Both the position numbers and the translations under genes were made by a program. Below are positions 9,301 through 54,111 of a stretch of 64,000 nt of DNA, piece by piece (position 1 is the stretch's first letter; each line of letters starts with the position of its first letter). Source of the DNA: Norana najaformis (taxonomy: Eukaryota > Annelida > Clitellata > Crassiclitellata > Hormogastridae); the NCBI GenBank assembly GCA_964023275.1, contig OZ029914.1, positions 14,118,341-14,182,340 on the forward strand, read 5' to 3'. Under the pieces are notes generated by a model that saw only the letters and a program-made list of their open reading frames with translations, ran no database searches and was not told the DNA's origin.

Positions 9301-12300
9301 TATTTCTGTAACAGAGTCATAAAAAGCCAAACAAAGACCATAAAACACCAAATGAATAAGAATGGCAATTTGCATCACAAGGTAAACACTTTCTCAAAGT
9401 AAGCAGCATACTTTCTTTATCCTGGCAGGTCGTTTCTTGCCAAAGTAGGCAGCAATGTCGACGTTTGCGTCATCAAGTGAGGCCGTCTGTTGTGACTGCA
9501 ATCCTGTTGTATTATGAATGTCCAGATAATCGCTCAGCAAATTCTGCAGCTGAAACACGACAAATGAAACCAAACAAAGAGTTTAAAGAATTACTGCAAT
9601 AAAAACAATTCAGAACATCTGTAACATTTTGAGCTCATACTATGTTGCACCTCCCCACAGCTGTCAGATAGCCATTTTTCAATGCCTTTCAAAAAACAAG
9701 GGGTCATCCATAAAAAATGTCTGCAAAAATGACCCACTTTGGACTCCTAATAATAATAAATAAAAACTAACAACTAATAATAATTACTACTAAATAACTT
9801 ACATATAAATAATATTATGACTGTTACAGAAAAAATTCTTGTCCTAATTATCCTGATGAAATAATGATCTAACTTTTGTATAATTGGCTTAGACAGAAAT
9901 ATGATTCTGGCAGAGAGGGTAACTGTTTTTAAACACATTACCCTCAGTCAAGTTATTATCTGATCTTAAAAGAAGAAATCATGTGACTTACAACTGACTG
10001 AATCTTATTCCAGACTTCAACTGAGTCATAGAGAGCAAAGTCACCCAAAGAAGACATGTTATTCTGGAAAACAGCAAAGAGTAACAACAATAACAGATTC
10101 CACTCAGCTTCAAAGAAAATTCACAAATTAAAGAAGTATATCTGTCAATGCCTCTTCATTTTAATACTGATCATCATGTTTAACATTGCATTAGTTTTTC
10201 CCATATACTGCTGTGCACATGCATGCACGTGTAACGTTGCCAATGCCAAAGACTTCATAATAGGTTGATCTCTTCCTGGTAGCAAACTCTGCTGCATGTA
10301 TTCATGTCCATGATGCAATGCCAAGCTGATCTGTCCTTAGCCTCACTCCATATGCATGAAGGCCGCTGTTTAGGTCTGCCAGACCTTCTCCACAACTCCA
10401 ACTGGTCTTGGTCTACCCATTGATCTTCTACAGTCCTTCAAGGGCCCAAAGGGCTTCCCAGTGATCCTCATCTTCCGAAGCATGAGCAACATGCTCAAAG
10501 TAATGGGCAGTGTCACTAATGTCAGCAGCCAGAAAAAACTCTTGCTAATACTTCCAAAAACTTCTTACAGTAGATGTTTTATTTTGCTTACGGAGAAAAT
10601 TGTACTACTGTAATATTTTACTATTTACACCCAGAGTGACCCTTACCAGGTGCTTAGCATGTAGCAATTCTACCTGAATCAGAAGGCAAATGGACATAAA
10701 ACACCATTACTCAGACAGAACTTAATAGTAATAAACATCGATCAAAATGATTATTGAAGATGGGGATGAAAAGCAATTAAAGACAAAGAGTAAAAAAGGT
10801 AGAGTAAGTGAGATTAAGAATTATTTGCAGTACATGATTCCACCGCTCACTTTGATTCTTTGGATGTTGGCCAGAATGACGGCATGGACTTGTGCGACTA
10901 TTCGGAACTGCTTAAAGATAAGTTCCAGAAGCTCCAGGAGGAACTGAGGCTGTTGGACCTGACCAAGGTCCTCACCCTCCATGTAAGCGCTGTCTGCAAC
11001 CTGCTGGGATGCTCGGTGGACGATCGCCAGCAGACCTGGTTTGATTCGGCTGCGCAGTGAATCAATCGCGTCTGGAAGCCTCCTTAGAAGTGCAAGAGAC
11101 TGGATGAGAATGGCAAGAAAGGCCAATGGATTTCCATCTGGATCCATAGTCTGATCTTCGATCACCTGCTGTGGAAGTGCGATCGCCGCCAGATCAGCGG
11201 ACATCAGCATCCTCAGCGCTTCTTCTTCCGCCGCCAAACCCTCGGACACCTGCGCGGAGTTCTTGAGTGCCAGTCGCAGGTAGGAGACCTTAGCCTGGTT
11301 CTGGCTCTGCCTCAGAGACCCCTGTCGTTGGAATCCCTTTACAACACTGCTTGTCGATTTTATGTAGATCTGACGGTTCAGTTCTTCAATCAGGGTTTCG
11401 TAGAGCTCCTCTCGCTTCAAGATCAGCTCATCCTTCACCTCCTTAAGAGCTGCGACCTCTGCAAGGTCACCTTCGAGCACAGCGAGCGACGTCACGATGA
11501 GCTCAGTGCAGCTGAGGTACTGCTTCTTCTCAAGATGACCTCGAAGTTTCTCGGAAACGTCCTTGACCTTCTCCACTTCGTCCAGCATTGCGAAGATTGT
11601 CTTGTTTTCTACACCTTCAATCCAGAGCTTGCGTAGTTCATCACGCTTGCAGTGAAGTAAGTTCTTACATGACTGAAGGTTATCCTTAATCGCACGGATC
11701 TTTTCCTGTGATACTGCAGAGCAAAAACAGCTACTGACTTCAATATACACTCCTTAAGCCAATGGCCCATTACTTTTCATTTATTTATTTATTTTAATTA
11801 CTACATGTTCGAGATCAGTAAATCTGAATCACAGGTGTGAAGAAAGTGTGTGCAAATAACTTGTCCAGACTCATTAGGCGCAAACTCAATATCGTTGGAT
11901 TACAGACCCTGCTAACGACTCCCATGCCGCACGTTAATCTAGTGCTGAATAAAGTTTGAAGCTGTGTTTTACGATCCAAACTTTATTACATCAGAATTCA
12001 AAATAATGAAGAAGCTGATAGAAAGGTAAATAGTCTAGCAAACTCATGCTTTATTAAGAAATTTCTTGTCCATTTGTCATAGATCTTTAATCAAGAGCCA
12101 CAGGAACCATAACAATGAATTTCTATGCAGCAAAAGAAAGACAATACAACTGTACTTTGTAATTGTAATCAGATATTTCTACAGCATCCCTTCAAGATAT
12201 ACACTATTATACTGAGTCCCTTCAAAGGAAACTTCCAACCTGACAACACAACATCAAGCTCAGAATATTTTTCAACTTCTGACCCAACAAAGGAATAGAA

Positions 12301-18135: not shown

Positions 18136-20455
18136 ATGCAAACGCTTCCATACTTAGATTCTGAACCATTAAAGCCGCGGAAGTAAGAAACGGGCACCGT
18201 TGAAATTTAACAATATTAAAATTTAAACAATCGTTAATTTACAATGTTATATATTTTATTCGGTATTTATATCTGATTGGCAATGTTAATATTTTTGTTA
18301 ATGAATTATTTCTAGGCATATTTTGCTTGGTGAAACAACGACGTCCGTTGAGCCGTATGACTGCAGCATAGAATGGCCATACAACAGCGTGGGAACTGGC
18401 ATGACGGTACGTATGGCATAGATGCCTAAAACTGGCAGGTCAACTGTGCTTCTTCCTGGTCTAAACTCGGCTTGTTCTTCTTCAACTGCTTTCTCAACAT
18501 ATTATTTCATTCTGTTTTGTATCATTTTGGTGAAAATTTTTCCTGGGATACTCGGTGGGCTGGTACCTGTGTCGGCGTAATTATCTCCCTTTCTTTTGTC
18601 AATTGGACGACTGTTGAATTTCCCCAGTCTTCCACTGTCCCTAGGGGAACAAAAGTTGATGTTCCTTTTTTGCTGATAAGATTTCTGGTATAAGGCTGAA
18701 ATTTAGTGGTTATTTGTTATGTGATAAATTTCTTCTTCCTAGTTCTTCTCCTCCAGTCTTGGATTACTTTCTGCCAACAACTCTTGCGGAGGTCCGCAGA
18801 CTCATATTTTCTTCACCTGACAAAACCTCTCTCCTAGACACCATTCCCACTTCTTACCTAAAAGAATGTTTTGATGTCCTTGGTCCAACCATTACGTCAA
18901 TAATCAATTTCTCGTTGCTTGAGGGATCCTTTCCTTCTGGTTTTGCTCATGCCATAGTTCATCCTCTGCTAAAGAAACCTTCTCTCGACCCGGGTGACCT
19001 GTCTAATTACAGACCCATCTCAACTTTGAATTTTATATCTAAAATTCTTGAACGGGTAGTCTTGAATCGTATGCAAGCTCACCTTTCTTCCAACCCACTA
19101 ATTTCTCCATTTCAGTCTGCTTACCGTAAATTTCATTCAACAGAATCTGCCCTGCTTGCTGTCCATAATGACATCATGTGTTCCATGGATAAGGGTAAGG
19201 TGACTGCACTTGTTCTCCTTGATTTGTCTGCTGCCTTTGATACTGTCGACCACTCTCTCCTTTTGCATCGTCTTCAACATTGGTTTGGAGTTTCTGGTCC
19301 TGCCCTACACTGGTTTGCTACTTACCTCAGCCCTCGCACTCAATCTGTATATTTAAATGGACATTATTCAGCTAGTGCCTCGTTGACTTGTGGCGTTCCA
19401 CAGGGTTCTGTACTTGGTCCTCTTTTGTTTACATTATACACCACACCTCTAGGTACTCTGCTAGACAATCATTCACTGGGATATCATTTCTATGCTGATG
19501 ATACCCAAATCTACATCTCATTTGACAGTTTGACTTGTCACTCGTCTGTGCAGCTGTTGTCTGATGCCTTTGAAGAGCTGCAGTCTTGGATGGCAGCAAA
19601 TAAACTTCTCCTTAACCCCTCGAAGACTGAATTTCTACTGCTTGGCACTCCTCAGCAACTTAAGAAATTCGAATGGCTTAAATCTGTAAAACTGGGTGAT
19701 TCACTGATTGAGATGACTGATACTGCTCGTGACTTGGGTGTTGTTTTTGATTCAACCATGTCCCTCACAAACTATGTAAATGGTATTTGTAAGTCATCAT
19801 ATATGTATATTCGAGACATACGCAGAATTAGGCATTATGTCCCCATGTCTTCCAGAATATCCTTAGCTAACGCATTGGTCTCCAGTCGTCTTGACTATTG
19901 TAACTCCATTCTTGTTGGTATCACTAAATCAAACATGCAGAAACTCCAAAGAGTTCAGAACTCCTTGGCTAGAGCCATAACAAATACTTCTAAATATGAG
20001 CATATAACGCCTGTGCTTAAATCTTTACATTGGCTTCCTGTTCAGCAAAGGATTTGTTTCAAATTAGGACTTACGGTTTATAAAACATTGAACTATGGCC
20101 AACCACAATACCTGAAATCAATCCTTATTCCCCAGACTTACCATTATTCTGCAAGGTCATCTGATTGTCTTTCTCTTGTCATACCTTGGGCTAGAACTGT
20201 TCTTGGTAAACGAGCATTTTCGGTTGCTGGACCAAAATTTTGGAATTCCCTCCCTGTGTCTGTTCGTTCTGCTCAGTCGCTCCTGTCATTTCGTTCTCAA
20301 CTTAAAACTTACCTGTTTCAAATTGCTTATCCACCATAGGCTGCCTCTCTGTCGTGCGGACTGACCTCCTGGATATCGACCTGATTGTGGCTTGGTTTTG
20401 GTGTGCCATCGGTTGATGCCTTGTGCATTAGACACTGGCGCATTAGAAGTTGCTA

Positions 20456-49829: not shown

Positions 49830-51520
49830 AACTTAAGTTAATATTGATCTCCTTAAAATTGAAACACACCAGTCTACCCAGGCATTTTTCAACATTTTGA
49901 CCTCATACCAATTAATGCCCACAATTACTCGGCCTACTAGAATTATTCCATCCTAGGCCACTCTTATTGATAATATTTTTGTAAACTTTCTCTCTGGCAG
50001 TCAGGAATCTCTTGTCTTGGTTAATGACTTGTCTGATCATCTGCCAATCATGTTTTGTACAGATCTCCATCCCTTGAAACGCTCCAAACCTCCGACTATA
50101 CCTTTAGGAGGCTCGTGAACTGTGGGGCCATATCACAGTTTCACGAGTTACTGACCAATGCGGATTGGACTAATGTAAGCATAATGACCCATCTACGGCT
50201 TATTCCAATTTCACTGAAACATACACTCGGCTTTCCCACTGATACACTCCCCAGTGTTAAAAGTACAGCTCCCGTTGTAAGCAACCATGGATGACAAGTG
50301 TCCTTCTTAAGTCATGCAATAAGAAATCTCGGTTATACTCTAAATACCCAAACAACCCTACAGCAGCTAATAAATTGACCTTTACAACTTATCCTAATAA
50401 ATTCAAACAACTTAGAATATTAGCAGAAAAAAAGTACTTTGCTGAAAAATTTCAAAATTGTCATACGAATCTCCAAAAAACTTGGAAAATAGTCCGAAGT
50501 ATTTTAAATAGTGGAGATAACTCAGTAGCTCCTAGTCTATTTATAATTGATGGTGTTGAAACCATGGAAAGGTCAAAAATAGCCAATAGATTCAATGATT
50601 ATTTCATTAACATTGGCCCAGTATTGGCTTCTATGATTACAGATAATAAAACATCCTTCCACAAATTCATCCATCTTCGTTTGCAATTGCTATGACCTCC
50701 CCACAGAAAATCATTGAAATTTCTAAACAAATTTGACCTTCATACAGTAGTGGGACGGATAATATTAAACCACAAATAGCAAAGGACACTATTTGAGACT
50801 GTAGCCCTACTACTGTCTGAAATTATAAACAGTTCTTTTAGCAATGAAATGGTTCCTGTTGACATAAAGATTGCTAAGGTTGTACCTTTGTTCAAGTCTG
50901 GCAATAAAAGTAAAATCAATAATTATAGGCCTATCTCAATTCTCCCTTACTTCTCCAATATTTTGAAAAATTAATGAATAATAGGCTTATGGATTACTTT
51001 GCCAAAATGAATCTATTATCACTAGACCAACGTGGATTTCAAAAAGGGCTTCCACTTTTATGGCCCTTTTGGACATGCAAGGCAAAATTTCTGAAGCTAT
51101 AGACTGCAACGAATTTTCATTAGGTATATTCTTTGATTTGTCAAAAGCATTTGACACTGTGAATCATGAGATCTTGCTAAAGAAGTTAGAACACTATGGC
51201 ATTAGAAATATAGAGTTAAAATGGTTTTCTGATTACCTAACTTCCAGGTCCCAGTATGTGTACTTTGATGGATTCTGTTCTGATACAAGGGTCATTTATT
51301 GTGGTGTACCTCAGGGTTCTATCCTGGGACCACTATTGTTCTTAATATATATTAATGATCTGTCTCTGACGTCTGATCAGTTTCACTTTGTTTTGTTTGC
51401 TGATGATACTAACGTATTTATGTCTGACAAATCAATTACTTCATTGTTTGAGCGTGCGAATCGTGAATTGATAACACTGGTCAACATAGAAATCGTTACT
51501 GACTGGAAAAGGCCCTAATG
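49830..51520 (+). mobile_element. Broken LINE: endonuclease end plus reverse transcriptase
   Basis: From about 49850 the plus strand reads the end of an apurinic-type endonuclease (ITRPTRI, TLIDNIFVN, NDLSDHLPIMF) with stops. It continues through a linker ORF (50291-50695) and a broken palm start (NNYRPISILP near 50917-50946) to an open stretch at 51060-51518. That stretch has reverse-transcriptase motif A (FFDLSKAFDTVNH), motif B (GVPQGSILGPLLF) and motif C (FADDTN). Several frameshifts and stops make it inactive. It is a different LINE lineage from the one at 18714. A DNA transposon (51534-53758) lies immediately to the right, and a further piece of the same reading frame appears at 53815-54111. 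Confidence 0.85.
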
Positions 51521-51533
51521 TGTAGCATCTTGG

Positions 51534-51577
51534 TGTGCTGAACACGAATATAACCATAAAAAATTTTTATTGGCTCT
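51534..51577 (+). repeat. Left terminal inverted repeat of the DNA transposon
   Basis: Starts TGTGCTGAACACGAATAT and ends TTATTGGCTCT; pairs with 53715-53758. Confidence 0.9.
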
Positions 51578-51774
51578 CGTTTTGAAAATATTTCATATAG
51601 TTCTTTTTTTATGTTTCACCATGTAAATTTATGCAGTAGGACTGCGACAATATCCTAAATAAGTCTAGAATGATGTAATATTCCACCTCATTGCATAATC
51701 CCATCATGGACACATCATGCACAGTTGATTACGTCATTTTCTGATGCAATGTAAAACTACAGCCAGTCGGCCGC

Positions 51775-51810
51775 TGACGTAAGATGACGTCAGCAGTGTA
51801 CTATATAAAG
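51775..51810 (+). promoter_or_regulatory. CRE-like sites and TATA box of the transposon ORF
   Basis: A perfect CRE palindrome TGACGTCA lies at 51785-51792, with a near copy TGACGTAA at 51775-51782. A TATATAAAG box lies at 51802-51810, about 115 bases before the start codon at 51925. The arrangement fits an RNA polymerase II promoter that could respond to CREB/ATF factors; the factor assignment is inference. Confidence 0.6.
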
Positions 51811-51924
51811 CGAGTCGGAACGGTTGAGCATTTACAATATTACAGACTTTGTGCGAGATAGTTTAAGTTACTGTTTTATAAAACTATTATTACTTTATCC
51901 ATTTAGATACAATACAGAACAGTA

Positions 51925-53616
51925 ATGCCTCGGAAGTGCGTAAATACTGTGGACAACTTTTGTTACATTTGTGGGGAAGTGACATTTTCCAACCAGAAGA
52001 AAAGTATCACTTATCAAGTCAAGAAGGCATATCATGCTTACTTCGAATGCAAGGTTGGCGACCAAGACAAGCCATGGGCCCCGCATATATGCTGTGCTAC
52101 ATGTACAACACAGCTTTCACAGTGGTTGAATGGCAAAAGACCATCAATGCCGTTTGCAGTTCCCATGGTGTGGAGAGAGCAAAGCAACCACGTAGATGAC
52201 TGTTACTTCTGCTTGGTTCCTCCTCTTTCCGGTGGAATAACGAAGCAAAAGAAGTCGACAATAGTCTACCCAAACATTCCTTCAGCATTGAGACCAGTTC
52301 CACATGGTGATGGACTTCCTATTCCAGAACCTCCAGCAGAATATATTTTCCTTGATTCATCTGATGAGGACAAGGGTGAGCCGACATATTCTTCTCCTGG
52401 TCCGTCAGCGTGCAGTGATCCCGATTTTCACTGTGGTGCATCATCAACCCCACACAGAATAACACAGGAAGAACTAAATGACCTTGTTCGTGATTTGGAC
52501 TTATCCAAAAACAAGGCAGAATTGCTAGGATCAAGACTCCAACAATGGAATCTTCTAGAAGAAGATGTCACAATTACTTCATGTAGAAAGCGCCATCAGC
52601 AGTTGGAACCTTTCTTTATGAAGGAAGGTAATCTGGTATTCTGTTCCAATACTGACGACCTCATGAATGCCTTACAGATCACTCATGACCCACAAGAATG
52701 GAGACTCTTTGTAGACTCTTCAACACTGAGTCTTAAGGCTGTGCTTTTGCACAATGGAAACCGTCTTCCATCTATTCCATTAGCGCATGCTGTCCACATG
52801 AAAGAGACATACGATAACCTAAAACAGCTACTGCATTCCATTGACTATAACAGGTACAAATGGCACCTGTGTGGTGATTTGAAGGTAGTTGCCATTTTAA
52901 TGGGACTGCAGCAAGGATATACAAAATATATGTGTTTCTTGTGTGAGTGGGATAGCCGAGCAAGAGAGTTGCACTACGTGCGGAAGGAATGGACTCCCAG
53001 ACAAAACATGGCAGTTGGACAGAAGAATATCCAGCACCCAGCTCTGGTCGAGGCTCACAAAATCCTACTACCACCCCTTCACATCAAACTAGGTTTGGTG
53101 AAGAACTTCGTGAAAGCCATGGACCGCACTTCGCCAGCTTTCCGATACCTGCATGAAAAATTCCCTCGACTCAGCGAAGCAAAGATTAAAGAGGCAGTTT
53201 TTGTGGGTCCTCAGATTAGAGAACTCTTCAAAGATGACCGCTTCAACAACTTGCTGGAGGGTGATGCGAAACAAGCATGGAATGCTTTTCGTCTAGTGTC
53301 TACAGACTTTCTGGGGAATGTTAGGGCAGAAAACTACAAGGAACTAGTAGAAAACATGCTCAAGCAGTACCAGAAATTTCGCTGCAATATGTCTCTGAAG
53401 ATGCATTTCCTTCATTCCCATCTGGATTTCTTCCCTGACAACTGTGGTATGGTTAGTGACGAACATGGCGAACGTTTTCATCAAGATATCGCAACAATGG
53501 AGCAAAGGTACCAGGGAAAATGGTCCACTACAATGTTGGCTGACTACTGCTGGACACTCCGCAGAGATGCTCCCGAACAGCTGTACAAGAGACAGGCAAA
53601 AAAATCTAAGAACTAG
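51925..53616 (+). CDS. 563-residue putative transposase of an unplaced family
   Basis: Intact single-exon ORF inside terminal inverted repeats, so probably the element's transposase. I recall similar uncharacterised proteins in several invertebrate genomes but cannot name the family. N-terminus: Cys pairs (CYICGEV near 13-19, HICCATC near 54-60, DDCYFC near 91-96) suggest a zinc-binding DNA-recognition module. Residues 130-180 are acidic and Pro/Ser-rich, likely disordered. The core looks like an RNase H fold: Asp264 in LFVDSSTLSLKAVLLHNGN, Asp318 in WHLCGDLKVVAILMG, a C-x2-C knuckle at 337/340 with W342 and H350, and acidic Asp512/Glu513/Glu516 in SDEHGERFHQDI. Asp264-Asp318-Glu would be the DDE-type triad; that assignment is inference from motif spacing. 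The C-terminus is basic (KRQAKKSKN). The start is chosen as the first ATG after the TATA box. Confidence 0.8.
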   Translation: MPRKCVNTVDNFCYICGEVTFSNQKKSITYQVKKAYHAYFECKVGDQDKPWAPHICCATCTTQLSQWLNGKRPSMPFAVPMVWREQSNHVDDCYFCLVPPLSGGITKQKKSTIVYPNIPSALRPVPHGDGLPIPEPPAEYIFLDSSDEDKGEPTYSSPGPSACSDPDFHCGASSTPHRITQEELNDLVRDLDLSKNKAELLGSRLQQWNLLEEDVTITSCRKRHQQLEPFFMKEGNLVFCSNTDDLMNALQITHDPQEWRLFVDSSTLSLKAVLLHNGNRLPSIPLAHAVHMKETYDNLKQLLHSIDYNRYKWHLCGDLKVVAILMGLQQGYTKYMCFLCEWDSRARELHYVRKEWTPRQNMAVGQKNIQHPALVEAHKILLPPLHIKLGLVKNFVKAMDRTSPAFRYLHEKFPRLSEAKIKEAVFVGPQIRELFKDDRFNNLLEGDAKQAWNAFRLVSTDFLGNVRAENYKELVENMLKQYQKFRCNMSLKMHFLHSHLDFFPDNCGMVSDEHGERFHQDIATMEQRYQGKWSTTMLADYCWTLRRDAPEQLYKRQAKKSKN

Positions 53617-53714
53617 TCTATGACCTGGTTTTTACAAATATTAACTGTAAGTGTATCACTATTGGCATGCATTGTGCGATATAAAATTACTTCATTTCAG
53701 ATTACAAAAAAACT

Positions 53715-53758
53715 AGAGCCAATTCGGCATTTTCACTGTCATATTCGTGTTCAGCACA
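53715..53758 (-). repeat. Right terminal inverted repeat of the DNA transposon
   Basis: Reverse complement starts TGTGCTGAACACGAATAT and ends GAATTGGCTCT; pairs with 51534-51577. Confidence 0.9.
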
Positions 53759-53814
53759 TACAAATTGATAAGAACTGACTAATTTCATTTCAGTAACATG
53801 ACTTTTGTAAAAAT

Positions 53815-54111
53815 TTGTTGATAATACTATCATCATGGTTTGTAGCAAATAAGCTTTCCTTAAACTTAAACAAAACTAATTATGTATTATACCGTTCACA
53901 TCGCAAATCTGCTTCTATGTCTAACCTGTTTCTTGAAATTGATGGCAAGGAAATACTTAGTGCAAAATCATCCAAATTCCTTGGTGTGTATGTAGATCAT
54001 CACCTGACTTGGAGTGAGCACATTGCTCATATATCGAGAAAAATTTTTTTGGACTATAGAAATGTCGAAATTACTATTACGATTACGAAAAGGTTTAAAA
54101 AACGGAAATGA
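53815..54111 (+). mobile_element. LINE fragment, continuation of the reverse transcriptase at 49830-51520
   Basis: Reads SSWFVANKLSLNLNKTNY, then EIDGKEILSAKSSKFLGVYV and LTWSEHI, the thumb region that normally follows the FADD motif. Left part plus this piece make one lineage split by the DNA transposon, although the junction is not clean: a few codons around the shared Trp occur on both sides. Confidence 0.75.

Follow-up and report, generated by a model that had tools for sequence, protein, structure and literature searches.

Chapaev3 transposons have been described as elements with the ends 5'-CAC and GTG-3', which duplicate the trinucleotide TWA between an A and a T, and whose transposases carry the motifs C(2)C, LH and H(4)H (PMC4079192). 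In most of them the coding region is a single exon, and those Merrow and Garfield families in which the two exons are complete measure 2289-2455 bp (2092 bp in Garfield_DP) and encode proteins of 554-562 amino acids (PMC4079192, Table 1). Ends of the form CA..TG, target duplications of 2-5 bp, and C(2)C and H(3-4)H motifs between the second D and the E are common across the CMCT group as a whole (PMC12730594), and the Chapa zinc domain carried by Chapaev3 is shared with RAG1 (PMC4411706).

The window, by which I mean the whole stretch of 64,000 nucleotides that was analysed, contains an element (Table 1) which in all likelihood belongs to an autonomous cut-and-paste family of the Chapaev3 group, one that is young and probably still capable of transposition; the group is part of the CMC/CMCT megafamily and distantly related to Transib and RAG1. 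A preliminary description had presented it as a DNA transposon of a family that could not be named, bounded by 44-bp inverted repeats. That it is a DNA transposon with its own transposase is supported by further copies, target duplications and empty sites, and the search of the genome that had been proposed, for other copies and for empty versus filled sites, brought up many copies together with a 3-bp TWA duplication. A name can be given as well, as the ends, the TWA duplication, the size and the C(2)C, LH and H(4)H motifs fit published Chapaev3. Membership is well supported by this anatomy; because no library sequence matched significantly, the placement rests on motifs and ends and not on a homology score.

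Table 1. Features of the transposon copy and of the interrupted LINE (positions in the window).
Feature	Position	Strand	Remarks
LINE (non-LTR retrotransposon, reverse transcriptase) 5' of the insertion	50985..51474	+	RVT_1 E 2.8e-20, frame 50985-51518, residues 45-151
Left target duplication TAA, preceded by A	51472..51474	+	empty sites read TTGATAATACTATC
Chapaev3-type transposon copy	51475..53820	+	left end complete, right end 7 bp short (other copies end in TCCAGTG); 48 copies and empty LINE sites
Left terminal inverted repeat CACTGGTCAACA	51475..51486	+	11/12 alike to right end of other copies, read inward CACTGGACAACA
Subterminal inverted repeat, left arm	51534..51583	+	outer 18 bases perfect
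CRE-like TGACGTCA	51785..51792	+	present in sequence, putative function; TGACGTAA at 51775-51782
TATATAA, TATA-box-like	51802..51808	+	present in sequence, putative function
Transposase ORF, 563 aa, no intron	51925..53616	+	stop-free in 75/77 scored genomic copies
N-terminal Cys/His-rich region, residues 1-96, candidate Chapa zinc domain	51925..52212	+	residues invariant versus L070
Asp264, proposed first catalytic Asp	52714..52716	+	invariant in two families; present in older-family fragments
Asp318, proposed second catalytic Asp	52876..52878	+	invariant versus L070
C337-F-L-C340, C(2)C motif	52933..52944	+	invariant versus L070
Leu385-His386 (PPLHIKLG), candidate LH motif	53077..53082	+	assigned by eye
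H494-FLHS-H499, candidate H(4)H motif	53404..53421	+	assigned by eye
Glu513 to Glu516 (EHGE), proposed catalytic Glu (513 or 516)	53461..53472	+	invariant versus L070
Subterminal inverted repeat, right arm	53709..53758	-	paired with left arm
Right terminal inverted repeat, remnant TGTTG	53816..53820	-	outer TCCAGTG gone in window copy
Right target duplication TAA, followed by T	53822..53824	+	A at 53821 is an extra base or part of ATAA
Same LINE 3' of the insertion	53822..54045	+	uninterrupted LINE copies match joined query 1-471, to ~54045

The boundaries of the unit were set by comparison with further copies in the genome, whose assembly comprises 608 Mb in 17 contigs, the window lying on contig C2. 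In all seven other loci compared first (L010-L016), homology crosses the 44-bp repeats on both sides and reaches its limits at CACTGGTCAACA on the left and at TTGTTGTCCAGTG, or a variant thereof, on the right. Altogether 48 copies were examined (L009-L016 and L025-L064). Both outer ends could be read in 40 of them, with the termini CACTGG...CCAGTG within the mismatch limits, in agreement with the CAC and GTG of Chapaev3, and eight copies, the window copy included, have a single end within these limits; in two of the 40 the last bases are altered, to CCATTG and CCAATT. The complete unit measures 2353 bp, from CACTGGTCAACA to TGTTGTCCAGTG, and this is the spacing of the outer ends in 31 of the 40 copies (range over all 40, 2341-2359 bp). 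In the window copy the right end reads TTTGTTG, followed by ATAATAC. Because the outer 7 bp (TCCAGTG) of this end are missing, the window copy itself is probably immobile, though its ORF is intact.

The repeats previously taken for the termini do exist: 51534-51583 and 53709-53758 form inverted repeats of 50 nt with 78% complementarity and a perfect outer 18 bases, and when the element is compared with the window by self-BLASTN the pair is returned at E = 6.6e-5. Counted from the outer ends, however, they start at base 60 on the left and at base 70 on the right, and since homology extends beyond them in other copies, they are subterminal and do not define the mobile unit. No target duplication was seen by eye adjoining 51534 and 53758, whereas the outer ends do have one. 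The comparison of L010-L016 and the 40 readable end pairs thus rule out these positions as element ends.

Adjoining the outer ends, an exact 3-bp duplication is present in 23 of the 40 copies, whereas 2000 shuffles of the right flanks give 7.3 on average and never more than 15. Seventeen of these duplications are TTA (nine) or TAA (eight), mostly as A-TWA-T, i.e. the target described for Chapaev3; the remaining six are CTA, ATA, TCT, TTG, TTT and TAT. The duplication is preceded by A in 18 of the 23 cases and followed by T in 16, and this A/T context is a strong bias here, not something that is 'always' found, as stated in PMC4079192. The longest match is 2 bp in three of the 40 copies and 3 bp in 22, which is at variance with the duplication of TA by ESTA. 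Transib duplicates 5 bp of its target and hAT 8 bp (5-7 bp in variants); exact duplications of 5, 7 or 8 bp were found in none of the 40 copies, and one of 6 bp in a single copy, within a TTA simple repeat.

Seventeen of the 40 copies are without an exact abutting 3-bp duplication, and 16 of these were tested for a displaced one, L025 being left out for its altered right end. The left 3-mer recurs 1-4 bases into the right flank in 11 of the 16 (L010, L013, L030, L037, L038, L044, L045, L053, L058, L059 and L062), compared to 5.2 after shuffling (fraction 0.001). In those 11 copies the right end is separated from the 3-bp target repeat by 1-4 mostly A/T bases; for L059, a TTAT duplicated exactly over 4 bp is an alternative reading. 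On the left flank, the mirror test gives a weaker signal (7/16 versus 3.3 shuffled, fraction 0.017). The flanks are rich in A+T, and the shuffles correct for this composition only partly.

The window copy interrupts a LINE whose reverse transcriptase matches Pfam RVT_1 (Table 1). With a query in which both flanks were joined and the TAA was counted once, unbroken matches to LINE copies were found, among them C9:10864380-10864850 (query 1-471, 97%), and empty sites were read directly in three LINE copies (L099-L101, on C9, C10 and C1), all as TTGATAATACTATC. For one insertion there are therefore paralogous empty sites, at which TAA and ATAA are indistinguishable because the right end is damaged; the extra A at 53821 may be a filler base or belong to a duplication of 4 bp, ATAA. 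The LINE carrying the transposon sits between blocks of large diverged repeats, which cover much of the window from 31000 to 61000 and whose longest pairs are ~4 kb long and near 79% identical. Elsewhere in the window, an open frame on the minus strand (10824-11753) matches exocyst Sec8/EXOC4 (Pfam Sec8_N 3.4e-7, Sec8_C 1.3e-5), and another non-LTR element has an open reverse transcriptase frame of 559 aa on the plus strand (18660-20336, RVT_1 4.3e-36). The LINEs and the Sec8 gene point to a eukaryotic genome.

The family to which the window copy belongs is young and large, with about 1000 nearly identical copies. A search with 51500-53800 as query gave 40 full-length copies at 99-100% identity, these being the 40 scored of 1162 candidates. 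At one mismatch or less, 1057 places in the genome carry the DNA of the C-terminal motif, 942 the left end (32 bp) and 912 the right end (37 bp); the same patterns read backwards, as controls, occur at no place in the genome. Similar proteins with a DEHGERFHQ-like motif are present in many invertebrate annotations, and these guided the choice of the motif, whose DNA patterns were back-translated from the window protein with His or Gln allowed at one position. On contig C1, where the listing of places is complete, a left end lies at the distance of a full-length element for 74 of 95 motif copies, and nine of 88 left ends are unpaired with a motif. No large set of miniature copies with matching ends was seen genome-wide at up to one mismatch per pattern, and the numbers of left ends, right ends and motifs leave no room for many miniature derivatives, a count that covers ends with at most one mismatch and misses more altered ones.

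Over the 42 of 48 copies that could be aligned, the pairwise difference has a mean of 0.45% and a maximum of 0.94%, and of the 77 protein matches that were scored, two contain one stop each and the other 75 none; both results come from best matches, and youth and intactness are therefore overstated. Changes in 42 copies, again from best matches, give an N/S rate ratio of 0.52 (82 N and 42 S changes), which suggests that the ORF is under some constraint within the family.

The intact single-exon ORF of 563 residues, at 51925-53616 on the plus strand, was correctly described at the outset, and Asp264, Asp318, Asp512/Glu513/Glu516 and Cys337-x2-Cys340 sit where they had been placed; all of them are invariant between the window protein and that of a second family in this genome (L070), which is 54% identical. 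Upstream of the ORF both the CRE and the TATA sequence of the proposed promoter are present, and they may function as such. The N-terminal Cys-pair modules are likewise found in residues 1-96 (C13-x2-C16, C42, H54, C57-x2-C60 and C93-x2-C96), where their pattern makes them a candidate for the Chapa zinc domain of Chapaev3; a Pfam scan of residues 1-112 was empty. The three motifs of Chapaev3 transposases, C(2)C, LH and H(4)H, were found by inspection and are invariant between the window protein and L070, and in the decayed copy L097 H499 is replaced by Leu. AlphaFold2 reached a pLDDT of 40.5 for the full length (18-row alignment) and of 43.6 for the core (11-row alignment), both too low to bear on the RNase H fold proposed at the outset.

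As had been suggested, the protein was searched for a named superfamily, and sequence searches of Pfam, NCBIfam, PHROGs and PDB gave no significant match. Weak matches to Retrotrans_gag (E 0.14 and 0.061), to ribonucleotide reductase in PDB (C-terminal profile, E 0.024) and to DNMT3B in PDB (whole-protein profile, E 0.77) were judged to be due to chance. No relative was found in phages and plasmids by tblastn, nor in scans of IMG/VR (best E 0.87 among six loci of one scan, nothing at E 0.1 among 31 loci of another) and of GTDB genomes (two candidate loci, E 1.8 and 5.1). The strings DEHGERFHQ, HSHLDFF, GERFHQDI, DEQGERFHQ, PPLHIKLG and HSHLNFF are absent from the paper texts searched.

The second family was recognised by the same motif with AGR arginine codons, a pattern that excludes the window family and occurs at 322 places; 29 of 30 fetched loci match the second family by DNA. 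It is mostly broken by stops, with stop-free stretches of more than 500 aa in three of the 30 loci, and it is older than the window family. Its right end, readable in 25 of the 30 loci, is TCCAGTG or a one-base variant, with TAA or TTA next in 17 of the 25. At least 81 of the 322 places are on C2 (51.8 Mb of the 608 Mb, ~27 expected if even), and 19 were counted among the places listed on the larger C1; it is possible that C2 is a sex chromosome or one that recombines little. Further decayed relatives are L072 and L095-L098. The motif variant DEQGERFHQ occurs at nine places and includes two small groups of three each (on C3, C9 and C11, and on C4 and twice on C6), which are probably further old families; L098, on C3 and from the DEQGERFHQ group, is an internally deleted, broken copy.

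Among described systems, Merrow and Garfield resemble the window family in their CAC...GTG ends, TWA between A and T, length of ~2.3-2.45 kb, protein of 554-562 aa and C(2)C, LH and H(4)H motifs, but they have one intron where the window ORF has none, and the largest coding-exon family in Table 1 of PMC4079192 has >254 copies compared to ~1000 here. In contrast to Merrow and Garfield, no large set of miniature copies was seen in the window family. Transib, TransibSU and RAG1 also have C(2)C and H(3-4)H between the second Asp and the last Glu, whereas the duplication of Transib is 5 bp and that of the window family 3 bp; the PDB chains of the Transib/RAG1 group show no sequence-level match to the window transposase. 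Chapaev has the CAC ends, C(2)C, LH and H(4)H in common with the window family, as well as a zinc N terminus, for which the window protein has a candidate, and differs as a 4-bp duplication group from the 3-bp TWA duplication observed here. For Chapaev in general, a duplication of 3-4 bp is given (PMC4079192). EnSpm/CACTA, Plavaka, ESTA and Lanisha mostly have CA..TG ends and share C(2)C and H(3-4)H; ESTA duplicates TA, and a TWA context goes unmentioned for these four in the relevant parts of PMC12730594.

The lack of a homology score to any named family would also suit a separate CMCT lineage beside Chapaev3 proper, with a branch of its own like Plavaka, ESTA or Lanisha, and CA..TG ends, duplications of 2-5 bp and C(2)C/H(3-4)H are indeed group-wide traits (PMC12730594). 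I consider this unlikely, as Chapaev3 is reported to have this TWA between A and T, this length and this protein size, and the N-terminal Cys-pair region fits the Chapa zinc domain stated for Chapaev3 (PMC4411706). An EnSpm/CACTA element would likewise have CAC ends and a 3-bp duplication; the TWA target in its A-T context and the single 563-aa protein, however, fit Chapaev3, and no Pfam transposase domain was matched, which makes this reading very improbable.

There is next to no chance that the element represents an unnamed superfamily ending at the 44-bp repeats: real as these are, with their 18 perfect bp, all seven copies first compared run past them on both sides, no duplication was seen by eye adjoining them, and it is the outer ends that number 942 and 912 in the genome. 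Equally negligible is the chance that a domesticated host gene, or a gene family resembling a transposase, is at hand. An intact ORF under some constraint (N/S 0.52) could be expected of a host gene, but ~1000 dispersed and near-identical places with ends and target duplications refute this for the window family.

If the element is indeed of the Chapaev3 type, the candidate zinc-binding region at the N terminus of the 563-aa transposase would bind the subterminal repeats, and the enzyme would cut at the CACTGG/CCAGTG ends by means of a DDE active site made up of D264, D318 and either E513 or E516, with C(2)C/H(4)H presumably forming a zinc site. The element would then be joined to A-TWA-T sites, with TWA being duplicated. 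It is conceivable, albeit rather doubtful, that this is a Chapaev3 family which is jumping now, in a burst of ~1000 mostly full-length autonomous copies with few miniatures, and with a right end that is often joined 1-4 bases off the duplication, which would hint that the ends are cleaved loosely.

The example of this locus illustrates that a strong subterminal inverted repeat can pass for the ends of an element when one copy alone is read. A would-be new superfamily is thereby removed, and in its place stands a Chapaev3-type family that is young, clearly delimited and rich in intact copies. Chapaev3 falls within the wider group that gave rise to the antibody-gene recombinase RAG1, and an actively jumping family would, if true, constitute a natural active source of a RAG1-related transposase; its intact and nearly identical copies make a direct test of transposition feasible.
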